A stretch of DNA of 45,129 nt from NCBI GenBank assembly GCA_014859205.1, contig JACUUR010000004.1, forward strand, positions 1 to 45,129. The letters are read 5' to 3'. This DNA is from Dehalococcoidia bacterium. Its GTDB lineage: Bacteria > Chloroflexota > Dehalococcoidia > GIF9 > AB-539-J10. A program made the position numbers and the translations under genes. Shown here one piece after another: positions 136 to 10,628 of this stretch (positions within the stretch are counted from its first letter, which is position 1; each line of letters opens with the position of its first letter). The notes beneath the pieces were generated by a model, which worked only from the letters and a program-made list of their open reading frames with translations, searched no databases and was not told where the DNA came from.

Positions 136-225
136 ATGATAGAATCCAGAAACCACCGAGATGTGTTAAGTCCAAGACCGGAGCAGGGCCGAACAACCCG
201 GACTACAGTACATAGGAGGGACAGG

Positions 226-2469
226 ATCGCAAGGAAGTTCATAGTCAGCACTGTGGCGATCACAGCCATAATAGGGCTGGTGATGGCTGGATGCCCTACG
301 GAACTACCCCCCGACCCGGACCCATATCCCCCTATGCCTGCCACGGGCGCTCCGGTGGGCACCGTCATTATCACGGCAGAACCTGACCCCGCCAGGGCAG
401 TGCTCAAACTGGCTGCCGGCGCGGTCGACATCTACGCCCACCCTGTCACCGACCGGGCTCTGTTCAGCGATATCGCGGCCCACCCCGAGATCGACTACGT
501 GCTCAATTACGGCTCATATCGCGACATCAGGTTCAACACCTATGCAGCGTCCAGAGACCCGTTGGTGCCGGAGTTCGACGATGGACGACTGAACCCGTTT
601 GCCGTCCCCGCGATACGTGAGGCCATGAACTGGCTGATAGATCGTGACTTCCTGGTCAAGGAGCATCTGGGCGGCATGGGAACCCCCAAGTACACTGTAC
701 TCGGTACTGCCTTTCCCGATGCCTCCGTGCGCTATCGCCACATCGTTGCCGCCATCGAGACGCACTATACGTATGATATGGCCCATGCCGCAGACATTAT
801 CGCCAGCGAGATGTTCGAATTAGGAGCAGTGTTTCAGGACGGCAACTGGCACTACAATGACGAACCCGTAGACATAATCGCGCTCATCCGCTCCGACCTG
901 TCGCCCTATCCGGCAGCCGGACACTACGTGGCCGACCAACTGGAAGCTCTGGGCTTCAGGGTGACACGGCTGGTCAGGACGGAGGCAGAGGCAAATCCTA
1001 TCTGGCAGCAGGGCAATCCCGCCGACGGCGAGTTCCACTTCTACACCGGGGCCTGGAGCTATCCAGCGATCGCTCGCGACCAGGGCGACATCTTCGACCA
1101 GATGTACACCCACCGGGTGATGACGGGATCTCCCCTCTGGCAGATCCTGGAAGACCAACTGACAGACTGGCCTGAACTCGACGAGGCGTCCCGGCGGCTC
1201 AGAGCTAACGAGTTCGCCACCATGGATGAGCGGCAAGAGCTGTTCGAGACCGCGCTCTGGGAGGCGACGGGGTTCTCCAACTGTATCTGGCTGATGGATA
1301 TCGCCGGCGCCAGCGCATACCGGCATAACGTGTCTGTGGCCGCCGACCTTGCCGCCGGCATCATAGATCCGATGTGGGCGTTCACAGCCCATTTCCACGA
1401 TGAAGGCAAGCCTGTGTGGCGATACACCTTGAGGATGGAGACACCCAGCCTGCTCGTTGAGAACTGGAACCCCGTGGGGGGCTCGACCAGGACATATGAC
1501 CTGTTCGTGACCCGCGCCCTGGGCGACTCAGGCCTCCTGCCGGACACCCGCACCGGCCTGTACTGGCCCCAGCGCATCGAGTCGGCCGCGGTCACAGTCA
1601 GGCAAGACCTCCCCGTGAGCAGGACCCTTGACTGGCTGACCCTGGACTTCGCCCAGGAAATCGCCGTGCCGCCGGAGGCCTGGGCGGACTGGGATGCCGA
1701 GGAGCAGCGCTTCATCACAGTGGCGGAGCGCTTCCCCCAGGGAACCACCGCCCTCAGAAAGTCGGTCGTCACCTATCCCCACGACCTCTTCGAAACACCG
1801 CTCCACGACGGCAGCACCCTTTCCATGGGCGACTTCATCATGGCCATGATCATGCGCTTCGACCGGGGCAAGGAGGCCAGCCCGATCTACGACCCGGCCC
1901 AGAGGGCGCCACTCGAGGACTTCCTGAAAACGTTCAAGGGCGTGCGCATCGTTTCGGTGCAGCCCAAACTGGTCATCGAGACCTACTCCGACGTGTGGCA
2001 TATCGACGCGGAGCGGAATGTCACCCACTGGTTCCCGACCTATGGCACTCACGATTGGACGGGTTTCTGGCACATGATCACGGTGGGCTGGCTGGCCGAG
2101 GCCAATACTGAGATGGCCTTCTCCAGGGACAAGGCCACCAACCTGGGCGTGGAGTGGACGGGCTACACCAGGGGGCCGAGCCTGAGCATACTCGAGAAAT
2201 GGCTGGACTGGGCCGTGGACGAGAACTTCATACCCTACAGGCCCACGCTGGCGAACTACATCACCCTGTCCGAGGCGGCCGAGCGCTGGTTCAACCTGCA
2301 GAACTGGTATTCCGACATGGGCCACTTCTGGGTGAGCAGCGGACCTTATATGCTCAAGACGGTCAGTCCTCTAGCCAAAATCGTCGTGCTCAAGCGGTTC
2401 GAGGACTACGCTGATCCTTCCGACAAGTGGTTCTTCCTGCTGGAGCCGCTGAGCACCTCGGGTCAATGA
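226..2469 (+). CDS. ABC transporter substrate-binding lipoprotein, family 5 (first paralog)
   Basis: Extracytoplasmic solute-binding protein of the peptide/nickel/opine type (SBP_bac_5-like), tethered as a lipoprotein, which delivers ligand to the permeases encoded at 6100-8516. After a short basic start there is a hydrophobic segment ending in the lipobox-like VMAGC, then a Pro/Asp-rich linker. It is colinear with the product of 3478-5700 (shared WADWD, HDGST-SMGDF, KGPS/RGPS-like and WY-GHF blocks). The open frame extends back to ATG 136, but a perfect AGGAGG at 214-219 sits 6 nt before an in-frame ATC at 226, at the place where the paralog has ATG. Starting at 226 gives 747 aa, close to the paralog's 740 aa; starting at 136 would add a 30-residue basic leader. 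The stop at 2467-2469 lies at the edge of the repeat framing the next ORF. The ligand cannot be read from sequence. Confidence 0.85.
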   Translation: MARKFIVSTVAITAIIGLVMAGCPTELPPDPDPYPPMPATGAPVGTVIITAEPDPARAVLKLAAGAVDIYAHPVTDRALFSDIAAHPEIDYVLNYGSYRDIRFNTYAASRDPLVPEFDDGRLNPFAVPAIREAMNWLIDRDFLVKEHLGGMGTPKYTVLGTAFPDASVRYRHIVAAIETHYTYDMAHAADIIASEMFELGAVFQDGNWHYNDEPVDIIALIRSDLSPYPAAGHYVADQLEALGFRVTRLVRTEAEANPIWQQGNPADGEFHFYTGAWSYPAIARDQGDIFDQMYTHRVMTGSPLWQILEDQLTDWPELDEASRRLRANEFATMDERQELFETALWEATGFSNCIWLMDIAGASAYRHNVSVAADLAAGIIDPMWAFTAHFHDEGKPVWRYTLRMETPSLLVENWNPVGGSTRTYDLFVTRALGDSGLLPDTRTGLYWPQRIESAAVTVRQDLPVSRTLDWLTLDFAQEIAVPPEAWADWDAEEQRFITVAERFPQGTTALRKSVVTYPHDLFETPLHDGSTLSMGDFIMAMIMRFDRGKEASPIYDPAQRAPLEDFLKTFKGVRIVSVQPKLVIETYSDVWHIDAERNVTHWFPTYGTHDWTGFWHMITVGWLAEANTEMAFSRDKATNLGVEWTGYTRGPSLSILEKWLDWAVDENFIPYRPTLANYITLSEAAERWFNLQNWYSDMGHFWVSSGPYMLKTVSPLAKIVVLKRFEDYADPSDKWFFLLEPLSTSGQ

Positions 2470-2864
2470 CAAATGCCAAAGCTCCAATGACAAACAAAGC
2501 CCAAAGCCCCAATGACAAGAGGAGATATGACCTCGAGGAACGAACTGCGCAGTTCGGTGAGGCCATTATCGAGCTTGCCCGGTCTCTTCCCCCAGATGCC
2601 GTCAACACTCCGCTCATCAGCCAGATACTGAGAGCAGGAACTAGTGTGGGGGCAAACTACATGGAGGCGGATGGAGCAGAGTCCAGGAAGGATTTCCGCC
2701 ACAGGATCTCAATCTGCAAGAAGGAGGCAAAGGAGACAAGACACTGGCTCAAGATGATCGGCCACGCCAATCCCGGCAGCCGAGATAAGTGCCAGGCGCT
2801 GCTGAGGGAAGCTCATGAGCTTACCCTGATATTCTCGTCCATTCTCCTGCCCAGGAAAGAGTAG
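2466..2864 (+). CDS. Four-helix bundle protein (S23 / 23S rRNA intervening-sequence family)
   Basis: Small helical protein of the TIGR02436/PF05635 family, first known from ORFs in intervening sequences of 23S rRNA genes; its molecular role is not established. The recognisable core runs from the YDLEERTAQFGEAII segment through the central GTSVGANYMEADGAES motif, and the family's KKEAKETRHWL segment follows. The ATG at 2466 overlaps the previous stop (ATGA) but lies within the word-like repeat; ATG 2487 is a likely alternative (132 or 125 aa). No convincing ribosome-binding site precedes either. The first 15 or so codons (MTNAKAPMTNKAQSPN) are simply translated repeat. The ORF lies on the transporter strand but has no functional link to it and probably entered as an insertion. 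Confident of the family; the function is unknown. Confidence 0.85.
   Translation: MTNAKAPMTNKAQSPNDKRRYDLEERTAQFGEAIIELARSLPPDAVNTPLISQILRAGTSVGANYMEADGAESRKDFRHRISICKKEAKETRHWLKMIGHANPGSRDKCQALLREAHELTLIFSSILLPRKE
2470..2518. repeat. Left word-like inverted repeat of the four-helix-bundle cassette
   Basis: The sequence is built from short recurrent words (AATGACAAA, CCAAAG, CAAAGCCCAAAG). CAAATGCCAAAGCT at 2470-2483 is the exact reverse complement of 2863-2876. CAAAGCCCAAA at 2495-2505 is the exact reverse complement of 2899-2909. The two word pairs occur in the same order on each flank, so they are not nested. Confidence 0.75.
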
Positions 2865-2923
2865 CTTTGGCATTTGGGCATTAGGACTTGAATTGACATT
2901 TGGGCTTTGGAATTTGAAATTTG
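2863..2923. repeat. Right word-like inverted repeat of the four-helix-bundle cassette
   Basis: Starts on the last two bases of the four-helix stop codon. AGCTTTGGCATTTG (2863-2876) and TTTGGGCTTTG (2899-2909) mirror words in the left flank, and the repeat ends in an AATTTGAAATTTG word (2911-2923). Confidence 0.75.
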
Positions 2924-2941
2924 CCGCGGATTTTCTCAAAC

Positions 2942-2974
2942 CTTAACAGAATCTTAACACTTGCATGTTACCAT
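2942..2974 (+). promoter_or_regulatory. Pho-box-like direct repeat with extended -10
   Basis: CTTAAC (2942-2947) and TTAACA (2954-2959) are two half-sites with an 11-bp period. After 9 bp comes TACCAT (2969-2974) preceded by TGT. Spacing is identical to the element at 5858-5890. The half-sites resemble PhoB/PhoP/SphR boxes (11-bp-period TTAAC-type repeats). The regulator identity is inferred. Confidence 0.45.
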
Positions 2975-3105
2975 ATGCTTTGCCCGATAGAGACCCGGGA
3001 AGAGCACCCGCAGGGGCAGATGAGGCACAAATGGCGCGAAGCAGGAGGTTCTTGATTGCCACCGCATCAGGGCTCCGCTGCATCTTAGACAGCAACCGGC
3101 AATCC

Positions 3106-3135
3106 TTGACACGATTTTCGAGGCTATGTTAGCAT
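3106..3135 (+). promoter_or_regulatory. Sigma-70-type promoter for the second binding protein
   Basis: TTGACA (3106-3111), 18-bp spacer, TAGCAT (3130-3135) with a TGT extension (3127-3129). It would start RNA near 3142 and give a leader of about 335 nt. Confidence 0.45.
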
Positions 3136-3477
3136 GTTTGGTCGCAGCTACGGGCGATGCCCGGCAAGGAGGTGGGGCATGACACGAATAGAGGTCTGGT
3201 TATGCCGATGGATATTCCCCTATCAGGGCTCTCCGGCAGCCTGAATTGAAAGGTGACTCTCGATTCAGGAGTTGTTGCTGGAGAGCAAGGTCGAAGCCCC
3301 TGGGCTCTTCGCCTGCAGGGCAGGGCTCCCCAGAGGAGCAACGCTGGACAACTGGAGATTCAGGCGGAAGATCAGGGGTAAGTGATAACCTGAACAGCAT
3401 TATTGAGGGAGGTGATTTGCCTATCGACTAGCATTATGAAGAGAGTAAGTTCGCAGCAAATCTAAATAGGAGGAAAA

Positions 3478-5700
3478 ATGGCAAGAAAGCTTATAGTAAG
3501 TGCTGTGGCGATGATAGCCATAATCGGGCTGGTGGTTTCGGGATGCACGACGCCAGAACCCGAGCCGGAGCCACCCCCGCCGCCAACAGAGCGCGAAGGT
3601 GGTGCCTGGGTCGATGAGATCGTCATCTCGCAGGAGGGCAGCCATGCGGCCGCCGTCCTGAAGCTGAAGGAGGGCACGATCCACGTCTACGGGCATGGAC
3701 TGACCGATCCCGAACTGTTCGAGGCAGTGGCCGATGACCCGAACCTGAGCTACCAGTTAACCCTGGGCGGGTCCCGTGACTTCATGTTCAACGTGTACGG
3801 GCCTACCTTCGACACGGGTGAGCTCAACCCCTTCTACTCTGCCAAGATTCGAGAGGCCACGCAGTGGCTGATCGACCGCGACTACATAGCTGAGGAGGTC
3901 CTGGGAGGCATGGGTGTGCCTCTGTACACCCAGTTCTCTCCGGGCGGCGCCGAGTCGGCCCGCTACAAGGACCTCGTGGACGGGGTAATAGCCTACTATT
4001 CCTACAATCCCGCCAAGGGCAATGCCCAGATCGCCGAGGGGATGACCGAATTGGGCGCAGAGCTCGTGGAGGGCAAGTGGCACTACGAGGGCGCACCTGT
4101 GGTGATCCACCAGCTCATCCGCATTGACCTGAGGCCCTATCCGGAACTGGGAGACTATTTTGCCGACATACTTGAGGAAGCAGGCTTCACGGTGGAGCGC
4201 CTGTACAGGGCGAGCGCCGATACCTGGGGGCCGTTCCTCTTGCAGGCTCCCGGCCTGGGCCTATGGAACGTCTATGGCGGTGGCTGGGGCATGCCTGCGG
4301 TATTCCGCACCGAGGTGCACAGTTGGGCCCAGTTCAACACCCACCTGGTCATGGCGGGTTACCCCTCATGGGTACAGCTCGAGCCGCTCATGGAAGAGTG
4401 GCCGGAAATGTACGACGCATTCGTCAGGCTCCGCTACACCGACTTCAACACCATGGAGGAGAGGGCGGAGTTGGTCGAGATCGCACTGACGCAGGTCAGG
4501 CAGTTCGCCAACGCCATATGGAGCGTCGCCATCACCGACTTCATCCCGCACCGGGCTGACGTCGGCATGTCTCTTGACGCCTGTGGCGGCGTTTCATCTC
4601 AGTTCCCGTTCACGATTCACTTCAAGGATGCGGCTGGCAACCCCGTGCGCGGCGGTACCATACACATGGAACTGCCCAGCATTCTGGTCCAGCCGATCAA
4701 CCCGGTGGAAGGCTCGGCCATGACCTACGATATCATGATCAGCCGTGACCTCACCGGTGACTGGGGCCTATTGCCGCATCCGCAGACCGGCCTCAACATG
4801 CCGCAGCGCATCGAGCGGGCCGAGGTCACCGTCAAGACTGGCCTGCCCGTGGGCGTAAGCCCTGAATCTGCCGACTGGTGCACGCTCAGCTTCGCACCCG
4901 AGATTCAGGTCCCGCTGACGGCCTGGGCCGACTGGGATGCTGCCAACCAGAAGTTCGTCACCGTCGCAGAGCGGATGGTCTACGATGAGGACTACAGGCC
5001 ATTCGCCAACCGCAAGTCGGTGGTCTACTATCCGGCAGACATGTGGGACTGGAAGATGCATGACGGAAGCACCTTCTCGATGGGTGACTTCCTGATGTCC
5101 TTTATCATGGCCTGGGACCGCGGCAAGCCGGACAGCCCCGTCTTCGACCCGGCCGAGAAGGCCGACGTAGAGACCGCCTTGACGCGGTGGAAGGGCATCG
5201 AGATTCTGAACACCGATCCCCTGACCGTCGCGTACTACTCCGATGTCTATGCGCTGGATGCCGAGCACTCCATCACCACTTTCTGGCCCGGCTACGGGAC
5301 TTACGGCGAGTTCGCTGGCTGGCACGTGATCGTCCCCGGCTGGCTGGCCGAGATGAACAAGCAGCTGGCCTTCTCGGCTTCCAGGTCGGACGAGTTGGGC
5401 GTGGAACGGGCGGACTACACCAAGGGTCCCAGCCTGCCCATACTTAAGGCACGCCTGGACGAGGCCAAAGCCGAAGGCTTCATCCCGTATGCGCCGACGC
5501 TGGGTGAGTACATCACCGCCGCCGAGGCTGCCGAGCGCTACGACAACCTGCTTGCCTGGTACGCTGAAAAGGGACACTTCTACGTAAGCTGCGGGGCATT
5601 CTACCTTGAAGAGGTCTTTCCTGTCGGGAAGATCGCCGTTCTCAAGGCGTTCGACGACTACCCCTTCGCCTCTGACAAGTGGATGCACCTGGTCCCCTAA
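3478..5700 (+). CDS. ABC transporter substrate-binding lipoprotein, family 5 (second paralog)
   Basis: 740-aa extracytoplasmic binding protein of the peptide/nickel importer type. The ATG is preceded by AGGAGG at 3468-3473. Residues 1-23 form a lipoprotein signal (MARKLIVS, hydrophobic core, lipobox VVSGC), followed by a Pro/Glu linker. It is colinear over its whole length with the protein at 226-2469, so the pair is a tandem duplication that later received the four-helix-bundle insertion between the copies. A very stable terminator-like hairpin follows at 5746, and the permease genes begin 400 nt later under their own promoter, so binding protein and membrane components can be expressed separately. 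Divergence of the two copies suggests different ligands or affinities; this cannot be decided from sequence. Confidence 0.9.
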   Translation: MARKLIVSAVAMIAIIGLVVSGCTTPEPEPEPPPPPTEREGGAWVDEIVISQEGSHAAAVLKLKEGTIHVYGHGLTDPELFEAVADDPNLSYQLTLGGSRDFMFNVYGPTFDTGELNPFYSAKIREATQWLIDRDYIAEEVLGGMGVPLYTQFSPGGAESARYKDLVDGVIAYYSYNPAKGNAQIAEGMTELGAELVEGKWHYEGAPVVIHQLIRIDLRPYPELGDYFADILEEAGFTVERLYRASADTWGPFLLQAPGLGLWNVYGGGWGMPAVFRTEVHSWAQFNTHLVMAGYPSWVQLEPLMEEWPEMYDAFVRLRYTDFNTMEERAELVEIALTQVRQFANAIWSVAITDFIPHRADVGMSLDACGGVSSQFPFTIHFKDAAGNPVRGGTIHMELPSILVQPINPVEGSAMTYDIMISRDLTGDWGLLPHPQTGLNMPQRIERAEVTVKTGLPVGVSPESADWCTLSFAPEIQVPLTAWADWDAANQKFVTVAERMVYDEDYRPFANRKSVVYYPADMWDWKMHDGSTFSMGDFLMSFIMAWDRGKPDSPVFDPAEKADVETALTRWKGIEILNTDPLTVAYYSDVYALDAEHSITTFWPGYGTYGEFAGWHVIVPGWLAEMNKQLAFSASRSDELGVERADYTKGPSLPILKARLDEAKAEGFIPYAPTLGEYITAAEAAERYDNLLAWYAEKGHFYVSCGAFYLEEVFPVGKIAVLKAFDDYPFASDKWMHLVP

Positions 5701-5857: not shown

Positions 5858-5890
5858 CTTAACGCCCTGTTAACAATTCTGTGTTACCAT
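5858..5890 (+). promoter_or_regulatory. Pho-box-like direct repeat with extended -10 (second copy)
   Basis: CTTAAC (5858-5863), TTAACA (5870-5875), then 9 bp and TACCAT (5885-5890) with a TGT extension. All three blocks have the same offsets as at 2942-2974, while the spacer bases differ, which argues for a conserved functional site rather than a copied stretch. Confidence 0.45.
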
Positions 5891-6000: not shown

Positions 6001-6029
6001 TTGACAGCGGCGGGGACTGGTGTTATATT
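6001..6029 (+). promoter_or_regulatory. Sigma-70-type promoter of the permease-ATPase operon
   Basis: TTGACA (6001-6006), 17-bp spacer, TATATT (6024-6029), with TGT forming an extended -10. RNA start is predicted near 6036, about 64 nt before the permease ATG. Confidence 0.7.
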
Positions 6030-6099: not shown

Positions 6100-7182
6100 A
6101 TGCAGGAGATTCTCACCAGGCTGGGAAGGCACTCGTTATTGAGAGGAGCATCGCTGCTCTTGACGGTGCTTATCGCCATATACCTTACTGTGGTCATCGC
6201 CAACTGGGGCGGCGCCATGGATGATGCTCGCAGAGCCCAGATCCGGTTCGACGTGACGCAACAGATATACGCCAACCCCGAGTACTTCCAGCTGCCACAG
6301 AGTGAACTCCAGCGCCTCGTTGACGAGAGATCAGAGGCACAAATACGCATCGAGGGGCTGGACCGGCCCTTCATCGAGCGTAGCCTGCGCTACACCCGTA
6401 ACGCCATTACCCTGAACCTGGGACGCTCGGAGCATATAATGGGCGATACCGGATCGCGAATGGTGCGGAACATCCTGCTCGACCGCCTGCCCTCGACGCT
6501 GCTGCTGATAGCGACAGCAGAACTGCTCCTGTTCTTTCTGGCTTTGTTCGGAGCCCTCTTCCTCTCCCGCCGCTACGGGAGCTTTCTGGACCGGCTCACC
6601 ATCGGCCTGGCGCCCACTTCGGCGGCGCCGGCCTGGTTCTACGGCCTGTTTCTTATCCTGATATTTGCCGCCGTCCTCAGGGTCCTGCCCTGGGGGGGAA
6701 TGACCGAGGCGCCTCCACCCAGGGATACCCTGGGCTACGCATTGAGCCTGCTCCGGCACCTTATCCTGCCCGTAAGCGCCGTGATAATCGGGGCCATCTT
6801 CTCCAGCATCTATAGCTGGCGGACCTTCTTCCTGATGTACTCCAGCGAGGACTACGTAGAGCTGGCCAAGGCCAAGGGGCTTTCCTCGCGGGCCATTGAG
6901 AGAAGGTACATCCTGCGTCCTACCATGCCGCCCATCCTGACCAGCTTCCTGCTCATGCTCATCACCATGTGGATGGGGGCCATCGTCCTGGAAACGGTGT
7001 TTAACTGGCCGGGGATAGGCAGGCTGTACTATCAGGCCATACAGGTATACGACACGCCGATCATCGTGGGGGTGGTGGTGATCTTCGGGTATTTGCTGGC
7101 GGTCACGGTGTTCCTGCTCGACTTCATGTATGCCGCCCTCGACCCGAGGGTGCGTCTGAGCATGGGTGGGGGCAGACGGTGA
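6100..7182 (+). CDS. ABC transporter permease, DppB/OppB type
   Basis: First membrane subunit of the importer. Of its 360 aa, residues about 18-34 form TM1, about 35-125 an extracytoplasmic loop, and the rest a five-helix permease core (BPD_transp_1). The cytoplasmic EAA loop that docks on the ATPase is visible as EDYVELAKAKGLSSRAIE followed by RRYILRP. AGAGG precedes ATG 6100. It overlaps the next gene by 4 nt (GTGA), so the two permeases are translationally coupled. It works with the subunits at 7179-10628 and is fed by the binding lipoproteins upstream. Confidence 0.9.
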   Translation: MQEILTRLGRHSLLRGASLLLTVLIAIYLTVVIANWGGAMDDARRAQIRFDVTQQIYANPEYFQLPQSELQRLVDERSEAQIRIEGLDRPFIERSLRYTRNAITLNLGRSEHIMGDTGSRMVRNILLDRLPSTLLLIATAELLLFFLALFGALFLSRRYGSFLDRLTIGLAPTSAAPAWFYGLFLILIFAAVLRVLPWGGMTEAPPPRDTLGYALSLLRHLILPVSAVIIGAIFSSIYSWRTFFLMYSSEDYVELAKAKGLSSRAIERRYILRPTMPPILTSFLLMLITMWMGAIVLETVFNWPGIGRLYYQAIQVYDTPIIVGVVVIFGYLLAVTVFLLDFMYAALDPRVRLSMGGGRR

Positions 7183-8516
7183 AGACGCTGCGCGAGCTTC
7201 GTCAGTACCCGTCGGCAGTTGCAGGGTTGGTCATCGTTGCTATTTTCGTGGTCATCGCAATCTACACTGTGATTGCCCTGCCTTACAACGAGGCGATCAG
7301 GCTCTGGCGGGCCGGTCCGGGTGTGTGGGACAACAACGCGCGGCGTGCTCCGCCGGTGTGGTTCGACTGGTTCACCAGCGACAGGCTCCCGCGCACAACG
7401 ATCATCCCTCTGGACCAGGCCACAATGACAGTGGAGCCGATCGGGGGCGGCATGCAGCGGGTGGAGATAGCGTTCGACTTCGATTACCTCTACGATCGCT
7501 TCCCCAAGGAGATGACCGTTTTCGTCGAGGCCCAACTGGCGACGGCCAGGGGAAGCATGTCGGTCCACTGGCGCAAACCGGACGGAGAGACGATCACCCT
7601 GGTCGAGGGGCACGAGATCAGGGCCGCCAGCAGCTACCGCGTCTCTCAGGATATGAATTTGCGCGCGGCGCTGGGGGTGACTCCCCATATGGGCCTGTTT
7701 GCCCAGGACCTGGGCGTTCCTGCCGATGATATGAAGCTCCTGCGGGGAGACTACCAGATGCTGCTCCGGACTGAGCTCCCGGAGGGAGACGTGTTCCTTG
7801 AGCGGACCAGGCTGGTGGTCTTCGGGCAGGTGGAGGGATACGCCGGCACGGACCATCAGCGGCGGGATATCATCGTGGCCCTGCTCTGGGGCACCCCGAT
7901 CGCGCTTCTGTTCGGGATAGTGGCCGCCGTCGGCGCCCAGGTCAGCACCTTCGTCCTGGCCGGCATCGGCACCTGGTTCGGCGGCAAACTGAATGCCATC
8001 TTCCATCGCCTCACCGAGCTGAACATGATCCTGCCCTTCCTGGCCATACTGATCATGTTTGCACACTTCTACTCGCGCACCATATGGACCATTCTGGGTT
8101 TGGTCATTCTCTTAAACATATTCAGCGCATCCATGAAAACATACCATGCGATGTTTCTTCAGGCCAAGGAGTTGCCCTATATCGAGGCGGCTAAGGCCTA
8201 CGGAGCAGGGAACTTCCGCATCATCTTCCGTTATCTGCTTCCCCGCGCTTTGCCTATACTGCTGCCCCAGTTCGTGATGATAATCCCCTCATTCGTGTTC
8301 CTGGAAGCCACGCTGGCAGTGCTCGGACTGGGTGATCCCATACTGCCCACCTGGGGCAAGGTGATAAACGACGCCCAGTCGAACAGCGCCATGTACATGG
8401 GGCAGTATTACTGGATGGTGCTGCCGGCGGGCCTGCTGATGACGATCGGGTTGGGCTTCGCCCTCGTTGGCTTCGCCCTCGACCGCGTCTTCAACCCCCG
8501 GTTGAGGACCATGTAA
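7179..8516 (+). CDS. ABC transporter permease, DppC/OppC type, with large external domain
   Basis: Second membrane subunit, 445 aa, GTG start overlapping the previous stop. TM1 lies near residues 14-33. A roughly 190-residue extracytoplasmic insertion follows, much longer than in typical DppC (about 300 aa in total). The permease core starts near residue 228 and carries the EAA-loop motif ELPYIEAAKAYGAGNFRI. The long external domain matches the unusually long binding proteins (740-750 aa versus about 540) and may be their docking surface; that is inference. The last helices end in the usual LGDPILPTWG-type segment, and a short basic tail closes the protein. Confidence 0.9.
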   Translation: MKTLRELRQYPSAVAGLVIVAIFVVIAIYTVIALPYNEAIRLWRAGPGVWDNNARRAPPVWFDWFTSDRLPRTTIIPLDQATMTVEPIGGGMQRVEIAFDFDYLYDRFPKEMTVFVEAQLATARGSMSVHWRKPDGETITLVEGHEIRAASSYRVSQDMNLRAALGVTPHMGLFAQDLGVPADDMKLLRGDYQMLLRTELPEGDVFLERTRLVVFGQVEGYAGTDHQRRDIIVALLWGTPIALLFGIVAAVGAQVSTFVLAGIGTWFGGKLNAIFHRLTELNMILPFLAILIMFAHFYSRTIWTILGLVILLNIFSASMKTYHAMFLQAKELPYIEAAKAYGAGNFRIIFRYLLPRALPILLPQFVMIIPSFVFLEATLAVLGLGDPILPTWGKVINDAQSNSAMYMGQYYWMVLPAGLLMTIGLGFALVGFALDRVFNPRLRTM

Positions 8517-8524
8517 ACAGCAAT

Positions 8525-9535
8525 ATGAAACAGAAGTCAGAGCCGGCGACCCACGGGCGACCGAGTCCCGCAAGGACCGCAGGACCGATTCTCCGGGTCG
8601 AGGACCTTTCCCTCTACTTCCGCGCCTCTGTGGGCATCGTCAGGGCGGTGGAGAGGGTGAGCTTCGAACTCGAGCGGGGCCGGTCGCTGACGATCGTGGG
8701 CGAGTCGGGCTGCGGGAAGACCTCGCTGGCCCGGGCCATCCTCAGGCTGCTGCCACGAAACATAGACACTTACAGGGGCCGGGTCTTCCTGAACGGCACC
8801 GATGTCATGAAGCTCAGCGATGAGCGCTTCCGCCAAGATATTCGCTGGAAGCAGATGTCCCTGGTCTCGCAGGCAGCCATGAACTCGCTCAACCCCGTGG
8901 TCAAGGTGGGACAACAGGTGGCCGAACCCCTATTGCTCGATCACCACATGAGCAAGGAGAAGGCGTTCACGCGGGCAAGGGAGGTCTTTCAGACCGTGGG
9001 CATTCCATCCGACTTCCTCAATCGCTATGCCTTCGAGCTTTCCGGGGGGATGCGCCAGAGAACTATACTCGCCATGGCCCTGGTGACGAGCCCGTCCCTG
9101 GTCATCCTCGATGAACCGACCTCGGCGCTGGACGTATTGACCCAGGCCAACATCATGAACACCCTTAAGGGGATAAAACAGGAGCTGGGCCTGAGCTTCG
9201 TGCTGATCACCCATGACATCGCCACCTCCAGTGAACTGGCCGATGAGGTGCTGTGCATGTATGCCGGGCAACTGGTGGAGCACAGCAAGGCCGAGCGTTT
9301 CTACCGCGAACCACTCCATCCCTACGCCCGGAAGCTGATGGCCAGCGTGCCCACCCTGCGCGTGGACAAGAAACCCGAGTTCATCACCGGCCAGCCACCC
9401 AGCCTGCTTAACCCCCCCACGGGCTGCCGGTTTGCCGCCCGCTGTGACAAGCGGTTCGACCGTTGCCAGGAGGAGCCGCCGCTCTTCCAGCACGGAGACG
9501 AGACCGTGAAGTGCTGGCTCTACGAGAATGCCTGA
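8525..9535 (+). CDS. Oligopeptide/dipeptide ABC transporter ATPase (OppD/DppD type)
   Basis: 336-aa nucleotide-binding subunit. Walker A is GESGCGKT (residues 59-66), the Q-loop region reads SLVSQAAMNSLNP, the signature is LSGGMRQR, Walker B is LVILDEPTSALD, and the H-loop is ITHDI. The C-terminal oligopeptide-transporter domain has the NPPTGCRFAARC motif and ends in KCWLYENA. The gene starts 8 nt after the second permease and overlaps the second ATPase by 8 nt. Confidence 0.93.
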   Translation: MKQKSEPATHGRPSPARTAGPILRVEDLSLYFRASVGIVRAVERVSFELERGRSLTIVGESGCGKTSLARAILRLLPRNIDTYRGRVFLNGTDVMKLSDERFRQDIRWKQMSLVSQAAMNSLNPVVKVGQQVAEPLLLDHHMSKEKAFTRAREVFQTVGIPSDFLNRYAFELSGGMRQRTILAMALVTSPSLVILDEPTSALDVLTQANIMNTLKGIKQELGLSFVLITHDIATSSELADEVLCMYAGQLVEHSKAERFYREPLHPYARKLMASVPTLRVDKKPEFITGQPPSLLNPPTGCRFAARCDKRFDRCQEEPPLFQHGDETVKCWLYENA

Positions 9536-10628
9536 TAAGATGGATAATAATACGCTGCTTTCGGTCAAGGATCTGCGCGTCTGGTTCGAGCTAAAGCGCT
9601 GGGGATTCCTCAGTGCAGGGTTCGTCAGGGCGGTGGACGGAGTGAATTTCGAGCTCAGCAAGGGGCAGGCGATTACCATCGTGGGCGAGAGCGGCTCCGG
9701 GAAGACAAGCCTGCTGCGCACAATCCTGGGGTTGACCGAGCCCACGGGTGGAGAGATAGTCTTCGCCGGGAGACAAATAGACTGGCGAAAGTCCAGTGAG
9801 GTCACCTGGCTGCGCTGGCAGATCGGCTTTGTCCAGCAAGACCCCTATGGAGCGCTCCCGCCGTTCATGAACGTCGAGCGCATACTAAGGGAACCACTGA
9901 TCATCAACAAGGTGAAGCCGGAGGAGCAAAGGCAGCGAATCCGGGAAGCGCTGGAAGAAGTGAGGCTGATTCCCGTCGACGATTTCCTTACCAAGTTCCC
10001 GCATATGCTCTCCGGCGGCCAGCAGCAGCGACTCGTGGTGGCCAGGGCGCTGATCCTGCGCCCCATGCTGATCGTCGCCGATGAACCGGTTTCCATGCTG
10101 GACGCCTCGGTGCGGGTGGAGATCCTGGAGCTGATGAGGAAGATCCAGAGGGACTACCACCTCGGCGTGATCTACATCACTCATGACCTCTCCTCGGTGC
10201 GCTACTTCTCGGAGCGCGTCTTCATCATGTATGCGGCCAAGCTGGTGGAGAAGGCAGATGTGGATGACATAGTGCAAAACCCGCTCCACCCCTACGCACA
10301 AGCTCTGCTCAATGCCATCCCCGACCCAGAGCCCGAGAACGTGGCCAAATTCAGGGACGTCCCGCCCGGGGAACCACCCAACCTGATCCACCCACCTCCC
10401 GGCTGCCGCTTCCACCCTCGCTGCCCCCACATGATGGAAGGCCTGTGCGATGAGCAGGAGCCCCCGGCCTTCGAGCCCAACCCCGGACATTTAGTGGAGT
10501 GCTGGCTCTACGACCCACAGGGCTCACATGAGAGATCGACCACGGTATTCCAGACCATGGCAGATGCAAAGCTTGCACGCCAGGAAGAGCAAAGCGCAAA
10601 GGATGCAAGCCAATATGACAAGCCATAG
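9528..10628 (+). CDS. Oligopeptide/dipeptide ABC transporter ATPase (OppF/DppF type) with repeat-derived tail
   Basis: 366-aa second ATPase. Walker A is GESGSGKT, the signature is LSGGQQQR, Walker B is LIVADEPVSMLD, and the C-terminal motif is PPPGCRFHPRCPHM. The partner protein ends at its CWLY motif, whereas this one continues about 38 residues past CWLYDP. Much of that tail is translation of word-like repeat DNA (ATGCAAAG, GCAAAG), so the native stop was probably displaced by the repeat. ATG 9540 is an alternative start just downstream of the overlap. Last gene of the importer operon. Confidence 0.93.
   Translation: MPDKMDNNTLLSVKDLRVWFELKRWGFLSAGFVRAVDGVNFELSKGQAITIVGESGSGKTSLLRTILGLTEPTGGEIVFAGRQIDWRKSSEVTWLRWQIGFVQQDPYGALPPFMNVERILREPLIINKVKPEEQRQRIREALEEVRLIPVDDFLTKFPHMLSGGQQQRLVVARALILRPMLIVADEPVSMLDASVRVEILELMRKIQRDYHLGVIYITHDLSSVRYFSERVFIMYAAKLVEKADVDDIVQNPLHPYAQALLNAIPDPEPENVAKFRDVPPGEPPNLIHPPPGCRFHPRCPHMMEGLCDEQEPPAFEPNPGHLVECWLYDPQGSHERSTTVFQTMADAKLARQEEQSAKDASQYDKP

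Follow-up and report, generated by a model that had tools for sequence, protein, structure and literature searches.

The WalR and MtrA boxes are direct repeats for regulators of the OmpR family, and the two-component systems of envelope stress include CpxRA, with CpxP, and BaeSR, with efflux pumps. The E. coli PHO box consists of two 11-nt direct repeats (PMC4415409), the cyanobacterial SphR box is a tandem CTTAACCT with a 3-bp linker (PMC1906773), and the HLR1 element of RpaB holds two copies of (G/T)TTACA(T/A)(T/A) with a 2-nt spacer (PMC9241938). Here we describe two short elements in a window of 45,129 nucleotides (contig C85 from base 1) from an uncultured genus of Chloroflexi, in which the control of transcription has been little studied, and we propose for this genus a sequence-defined regulon and a candidate regulator. 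Like the SphR and PHO boxes, the window element has tandem direct repeats with an 11-bp period, an adjacent -10, no -35 and a TTAAC core. It differs from Pho boxes in having two repeats, whereas the local pst box has four, in the conserved AGGAT and TTT around the repeats, in its exported-protein targets and in its occurrence without Pho genes. With HLR1 it would share the use of direct repeats by an OmpR-family regulator, but the half-site TTAACA, the 11-bp period, other targets and the lack of a known link to redox or light set it apart from the HLR1, WalR and MtrA boxes.

Elements and surrounding genes

The preliminary description of this DNA reported two copies of the element with identical spacing, and both are present: the pattern CTTAAC-N6-TTAACA-N6-TGTTACCAT occurs in the window at sites 1 and 2 only (Table 1), and with up to three mismatches these are still the only two matches, against 0.00 expected from 100 dinucleotide shuffles. 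The blocks lie at offsets 0, 12 and 24 in both sites; the third offset had been given as 24-25, and its block is there, but the offset is exactly 24 in each. The TTAAC repeats have a period of 11 bp, the second TTAACA is separated by 9 bp from the -10-like TACCAT, and this hexamer is preceded by TG-N in both copies. The sites have 21 fixed letters in common, while the intervening bases differ, as had been noted, and so do the flanks, and the spacer between the repeats of site 2 deviates from the genus consensus. With a weight matrix of 33 columns, derived from 38 sites in other genomes (the window's own genome being left out), site 1 scored 43.8 bits and site 2 32.0 bits; nowhere else in the window did the score reach 5 bits, and no match of 4 bits or more arose in a 1-Mb second-order Markov background. 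With direct repeats at the -35 position and a fixed spacing to the -10, the elements appear to belong to the operator class of OmpR/PhoB-family activators, and the geometry bears out the earlier reading of an 11-bp period, a -10 at 9 bp and a site of this type that replaces the -35.

Table 1. Features of the window and the OmpR-family regulators of its genome
Feature	Location	Strand	Remarks
Activator-promoter element, site 1	2942..2974	+	CTTAACAGAATCTTAACACTTGCATGTTACCAT; no mismatch to pattern
Site 1, repeats	CTTAACA 2942-2948, CTTAACA 2953-2959	+	direct, period 11
Site 1, extended -10-like TGTTACCAT	2966-2974	+	hexamer TACCAT 2969-2974
Activator-promoter element, site 2	5858..5890	+	CTTAACGCCCTGTTAACAATTCTGTGTTACCAT; no mismatch to pattern
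Site 2, parts	CTTAACG 5858-5864, GTTAACA 5869-5875, TGTTACCAT 5882-5890	+	
Second, sigma-70-like promoter, binding-protein unit	3106..3135	+	TTGACA-18-TAGCAT, without activator box; consensus match only
Second solute-binding protein, SBP_bac_5	3478..5700	+	740 aa, lipoprotein-type signal; PF00496 E=2e-13
Second, sigma-70-like promoter, permease-ATPase unit	6001..6029	+	TTGACA-17-TATATT; consensus match only
OppB-type permease	6100..7182	+	PF00528 E=7e-27
OppC-type permease	7179..8516	+	PF00528 E=2.6e-16
OppD-type ATPase	8525..9535	+	ABC_tran and oligo_HPY
OppF-type ATPase	9528..10628	+	ABC_tran and oligo_HPY
RR1 (PhoB)	C20		in phoB-phoR-pstSCAB-phoU cluster
RR2	C78		gene pair with membrane kinase
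RR3	C31		OmpR-family regulator

The first gene 3' of site 1, after 503 bp, encodes the second of two solute-binding proteins, and site 2 lies 209 bp upstream of the OppB-type permease gene, the first of an OppB-OppC-OppD-OppF operon. One site thus stands before each unit, which supports the suggestion of common control that had been made for them; the TTGACA promoters pointed out earlier do exist as consensus matches, one in each unit. The region 5' of the first binding protein ends at the contig edge. Among homologues of the window binding protein in relatives G009, G012, G014 and G018, several have the element 320-370 bp upstream and others do not. No element was seen before six homologues in other metagenome-assembled genomes (MAGs; five named Chloroflexi, one Trueperaceae), some of whose contigs start near the gene; relatives in public collections are chiefly MAGs named Chloroflexi bacterium.

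Several other observations were made around the sites. At 777 and 740 aa, the two binding proteins (window 136-5700) match SBP_bac_5 over only part of their length and seem to be long, atypical members whose substrate is not assigned by sequence. The true start of the first (window 136-240) apparently lies near 229, after AGGAGG, with an in-frame ATG at 136; the codon there is ATC, in contrast to the ATG of the paralogue at 3478, and would be either an unusual start codon, a mutation or an assembly error. Just before site 1, in the frame of 2427-2864, there is an ORF of the 23S_rRNA_IVP (four-helix-bundle) type, which is flanked (region 2469-2918) by two tandem 25-26-nt repeats, mutually inverted, in a cassette-like arrangement. 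The possibility of a conserved leader that follows the element, ahead of the binding-protein gene, was considered and rejected, the alignment showing little besides the element and the ribosome-binding region. An Rfam scan of the window gave no match.

Recurrence and targets

In the window's own genome (G000; 1.67 Mb, 134 contigs) the relaxed consensus with up to three mismatches gave exactly 8 sites and the reversed-pattern controls gave none. About 70 matches were found in 40 relatives when one mismatch was allowed, compared with 2 control matches, and for the strict form there were 39 exact sites among 20 genomes of the same genus, with 0 in controls. Of 64 genomes from the order but outside the genus, 2 had the strict form, which is thus nearly genus-restricted. 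The consensus of the 38 sites from other genomes is CTTAACAGGATTTTAACATTTnnnTGTTAnCAT, of which the core letters are fixed by the pattern-based selection; the AGGAT, the TTT and the context of the -10 are conserved in free or relaxed columns, beyond the search pattern used on the 40 relatives. The repeat geometry and the 9-bp gap to the -10 are the same throughout the genus. A TTAAC-N6-TTAAC at C15:2155, a palindrome matching on both strands with no full-pattern match, was set aside. In the literature on Chloroflexi our searches turned up nothing relevant to a motif of this kind. The sites appear to be a real and well-defined operator of a regulon for which we found no description, and its mechanism would be of a familiar kind. 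Since the genomes are fragmented MAGs, absences of RR2, PhoB or the element are provisional.

The 8 sites of the window's genome precede genes for an SBP_bac_5 protein, OppB, an OpuAC-type binding protein, a DUF2330 protein, two beta-helix proteins, a 309-aa lipoprotein-like ORF and RR2. Judged by a crude signal-peptide rule, the first downstream gene looks exported in 49 of 60 cases; among control ORFs the rule picked out 34 of 198 (Fisher 6e-20, which is only indicative because paralogues are not independent). On inspection by eye, several of the other 11 first genes also look exported. The Pfam families of the targets are SBP_bac_5, Peripla_BP_6, DctP, NMT1_3, OpuAC, DUF2330, GLUG, Flg_new_2 and SurA_N, and there are also beta-helix/NosD-like and InlB B-repeat proteins; the solute-binding proteins alone span five families of ABC and TRAP types. 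Probably, then, the element set marks a genus-wide regulon that switches on exported and surface proteins.

How might the sites act? We consider it likely that they are operator-promoters of RR2, through which the second binding protein and the permease-ATPase operon are coactivated within an autoregulated exported-protein regulon. A phosphorylated dimer of an OmpR-family regulator would bind the two 11-bp repeats head-to-tail, occupy the place of the -35 and recruit RNA polymerase to the -10, TGnTAnnnT, which lies nine bases further downstream. This regulator would most likely be RR2, which would turn on binding proteins of several ABC and TRAP families together with surface proteins, and also, through the matching site of its own gene, itself. 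The downstream TTGACA promoter of each unit may supply a basal level. Transporters with no assigned substrate would in this way be placed under common control.

The phosphate question

Phosphate starvation was the stimulus suggested in the preliminary description. The sites would then be true Pho boxes, by which PhoB activates both units as part of a Pho regulon widened to take in binding proteins. Their architecture equals that of the SphR/PhoB box, with an 11-bp period and a -10 about 10 bp downstream (PMC1906773). Tandem direct repeats of this period do stand upstream of the -10, and the genome of the window does possess a genuine phoB-phoR-pstSCAB-phoU cluster, whose own box has TTTAACA in its distal repeats and an identical spacing from the last repeat to the -10. 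However, six relatives (G004, G008, G009, G010, G011 and G013) possess both RR2 and the element, the latter exact or with one mismatch, and have no detectable PhoB-type RR1, PhoU or PstS, and the pst promoters bear a different box. In G000 and several relatives four 11-bp repeats form a conserved array at the pstS promoter; they read approximately ATTTAAC-n4, TTTAACA-n4, CTTAAACCGTC and CTTAAAGTTC, followed by TGTTAnACT, with CTTAAA in the promoter-proximal repeats. By the element matrix the pst promoters score at most 11 bits, most of them under the 3-bit threshold, and the pst region of G000 has no site of 3 bits or more. The scan that had been recommended, for sites before pst, phoU or phoA-like genes, found none among the sites examined, nor was any phosphate-acquisition gene found behind a window-type element; the half-site precedes RR2 genes and not PhoB genes. 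Since the pst box has a like geometry and an unlike proximal half-site, the preliminary description had the class of site right, but the regulator and the stimulus that it proposed are most likely wrong, and we regard activation by PhoB as unlikely. Comparing the element with the pst promoter, and with genomes devoid of Pho genes, allows it to be separated from the true Pho box. The four-repeat Pho box itself lies between phoR and pstS (L113, 6620-6665, minus strand) and is conserved in this Chloroflexi order.

Could the sites be common to RR2 and PhoB, with phosphate status modulating an envelope regulon? PhoB could bind window-type sites too, because the distal repeats of the pst box also read TTTAACA, nearly identical to TTAACA, and the repeat geometry would serve both regulators. 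Such sharing seems improbable to us, however, as the inter-repeat AGGAT and the post-repeat TTT, conserved in the genus, are missing from the pst boxes. A recent duplication of one promoter, or a dispersed repeat with no regulatory meaning, might be suggested by the 21 common letters. Either is very hard to believe: the bases between the blocks differ, as do the flanks, identical letters are kept in dozens of different promoters of the genus with 0 in reversed-pattern controls, and the way in which conserved and free positions are distributed across the genus speaks against it.

RR2 and its locus

Three OmpR-family (Trans_reg_C) regulators of the window's genome score above the Pfam cut-off, and we name RR2 as the probable regulator chiefly because matching half-sites or elements precede RR2 genes and stand in RR2 loci. 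A TTAACA half-site, often as a double box, was found before 21 of the 22 RR2 genes with upstream sequence, about 45-66 bp (mostly 45-59 bp) from the start, whereas of 49 upstream regions belonging to other regulators a single one had it (Fisher 9e-16). The RR2 gene of G000 is preceded by a degenerate first repeat, TTCAT. In G020, G021, G022, G028, G029 and G031 the RR2 locus also has window-type elements of 25-41 bits at other places, some hundreds of bases upstream, and those of G022, G028 and G029 adjoin a small exported protein. RR2 is the sole OmpR-family regulator found in G004, G008 and G010. One or two element matches occur in G001 and G017 (76% and 68% complete), where RR2 was not found, and G003 and G016 have RR2 with no other site at the threshold used.

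The recognition helix reads HILNLRRK in RR2 and HVRWLRQK in PhoB. That of PhoB is established to read the major groove, and by analogy the RR2 helix would do likewise. The closest NCBIfam models to RR2 are MtrA, RpaB, PhoB and OmpR, the first two ranked highest, all below cut-off: the best score was 231.7 bits against an MtrA cut-off of 300, and the equivalog cut-offs of RpaB, PhoB and BaeR were likewise missed. RR2, the most likely regulator, is a relative of MtrA, RpaB and BaeR and is distinct from PhoB.

The structural model of the partner kinase's sensor has an extracytoplasmic PAS/Cache-like fold (mean pLDDT 80), with a weak best match to the WalK receptor domain (Foldseek E=4e-3). In other genera of the order (L308, L312 and L313) the RR2-kinase pair lies beside a small exported protein, with a weak CpxP-family match in one of three copies (E=2.8e-5), and a MacA/MacB-type exporter, an arrangement that resembles CpxRA and BaeSR; these loci also hold window-type elements. 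Unlike in those systems, RR2 falls below every equivalog cut-off, the targets are chiefly binding and surface proteins, and in the window's genus exporter genes were not seen beside RR2. A natural guess would be that the signal of RR2 is envelope-related. Perhaps, and we offer this tentatively, rewiring of the two-component system in the window's genus has given it general control over exported proteins as well as imports, with the composition of the cell exterior set by one sensor. If so, ABC and TRAP binding proteins and surface repeat proteins would come under one sensor, in a system that elsewhere stands beside a MacAB-type exporter and a CpxP-like protein. In G000 an mgtE magnesium transporter gene (L304, 3985-5352) is divergent from RR2, and starts of similar ORFs were seen beside RR2 in G009 and G012 as well.
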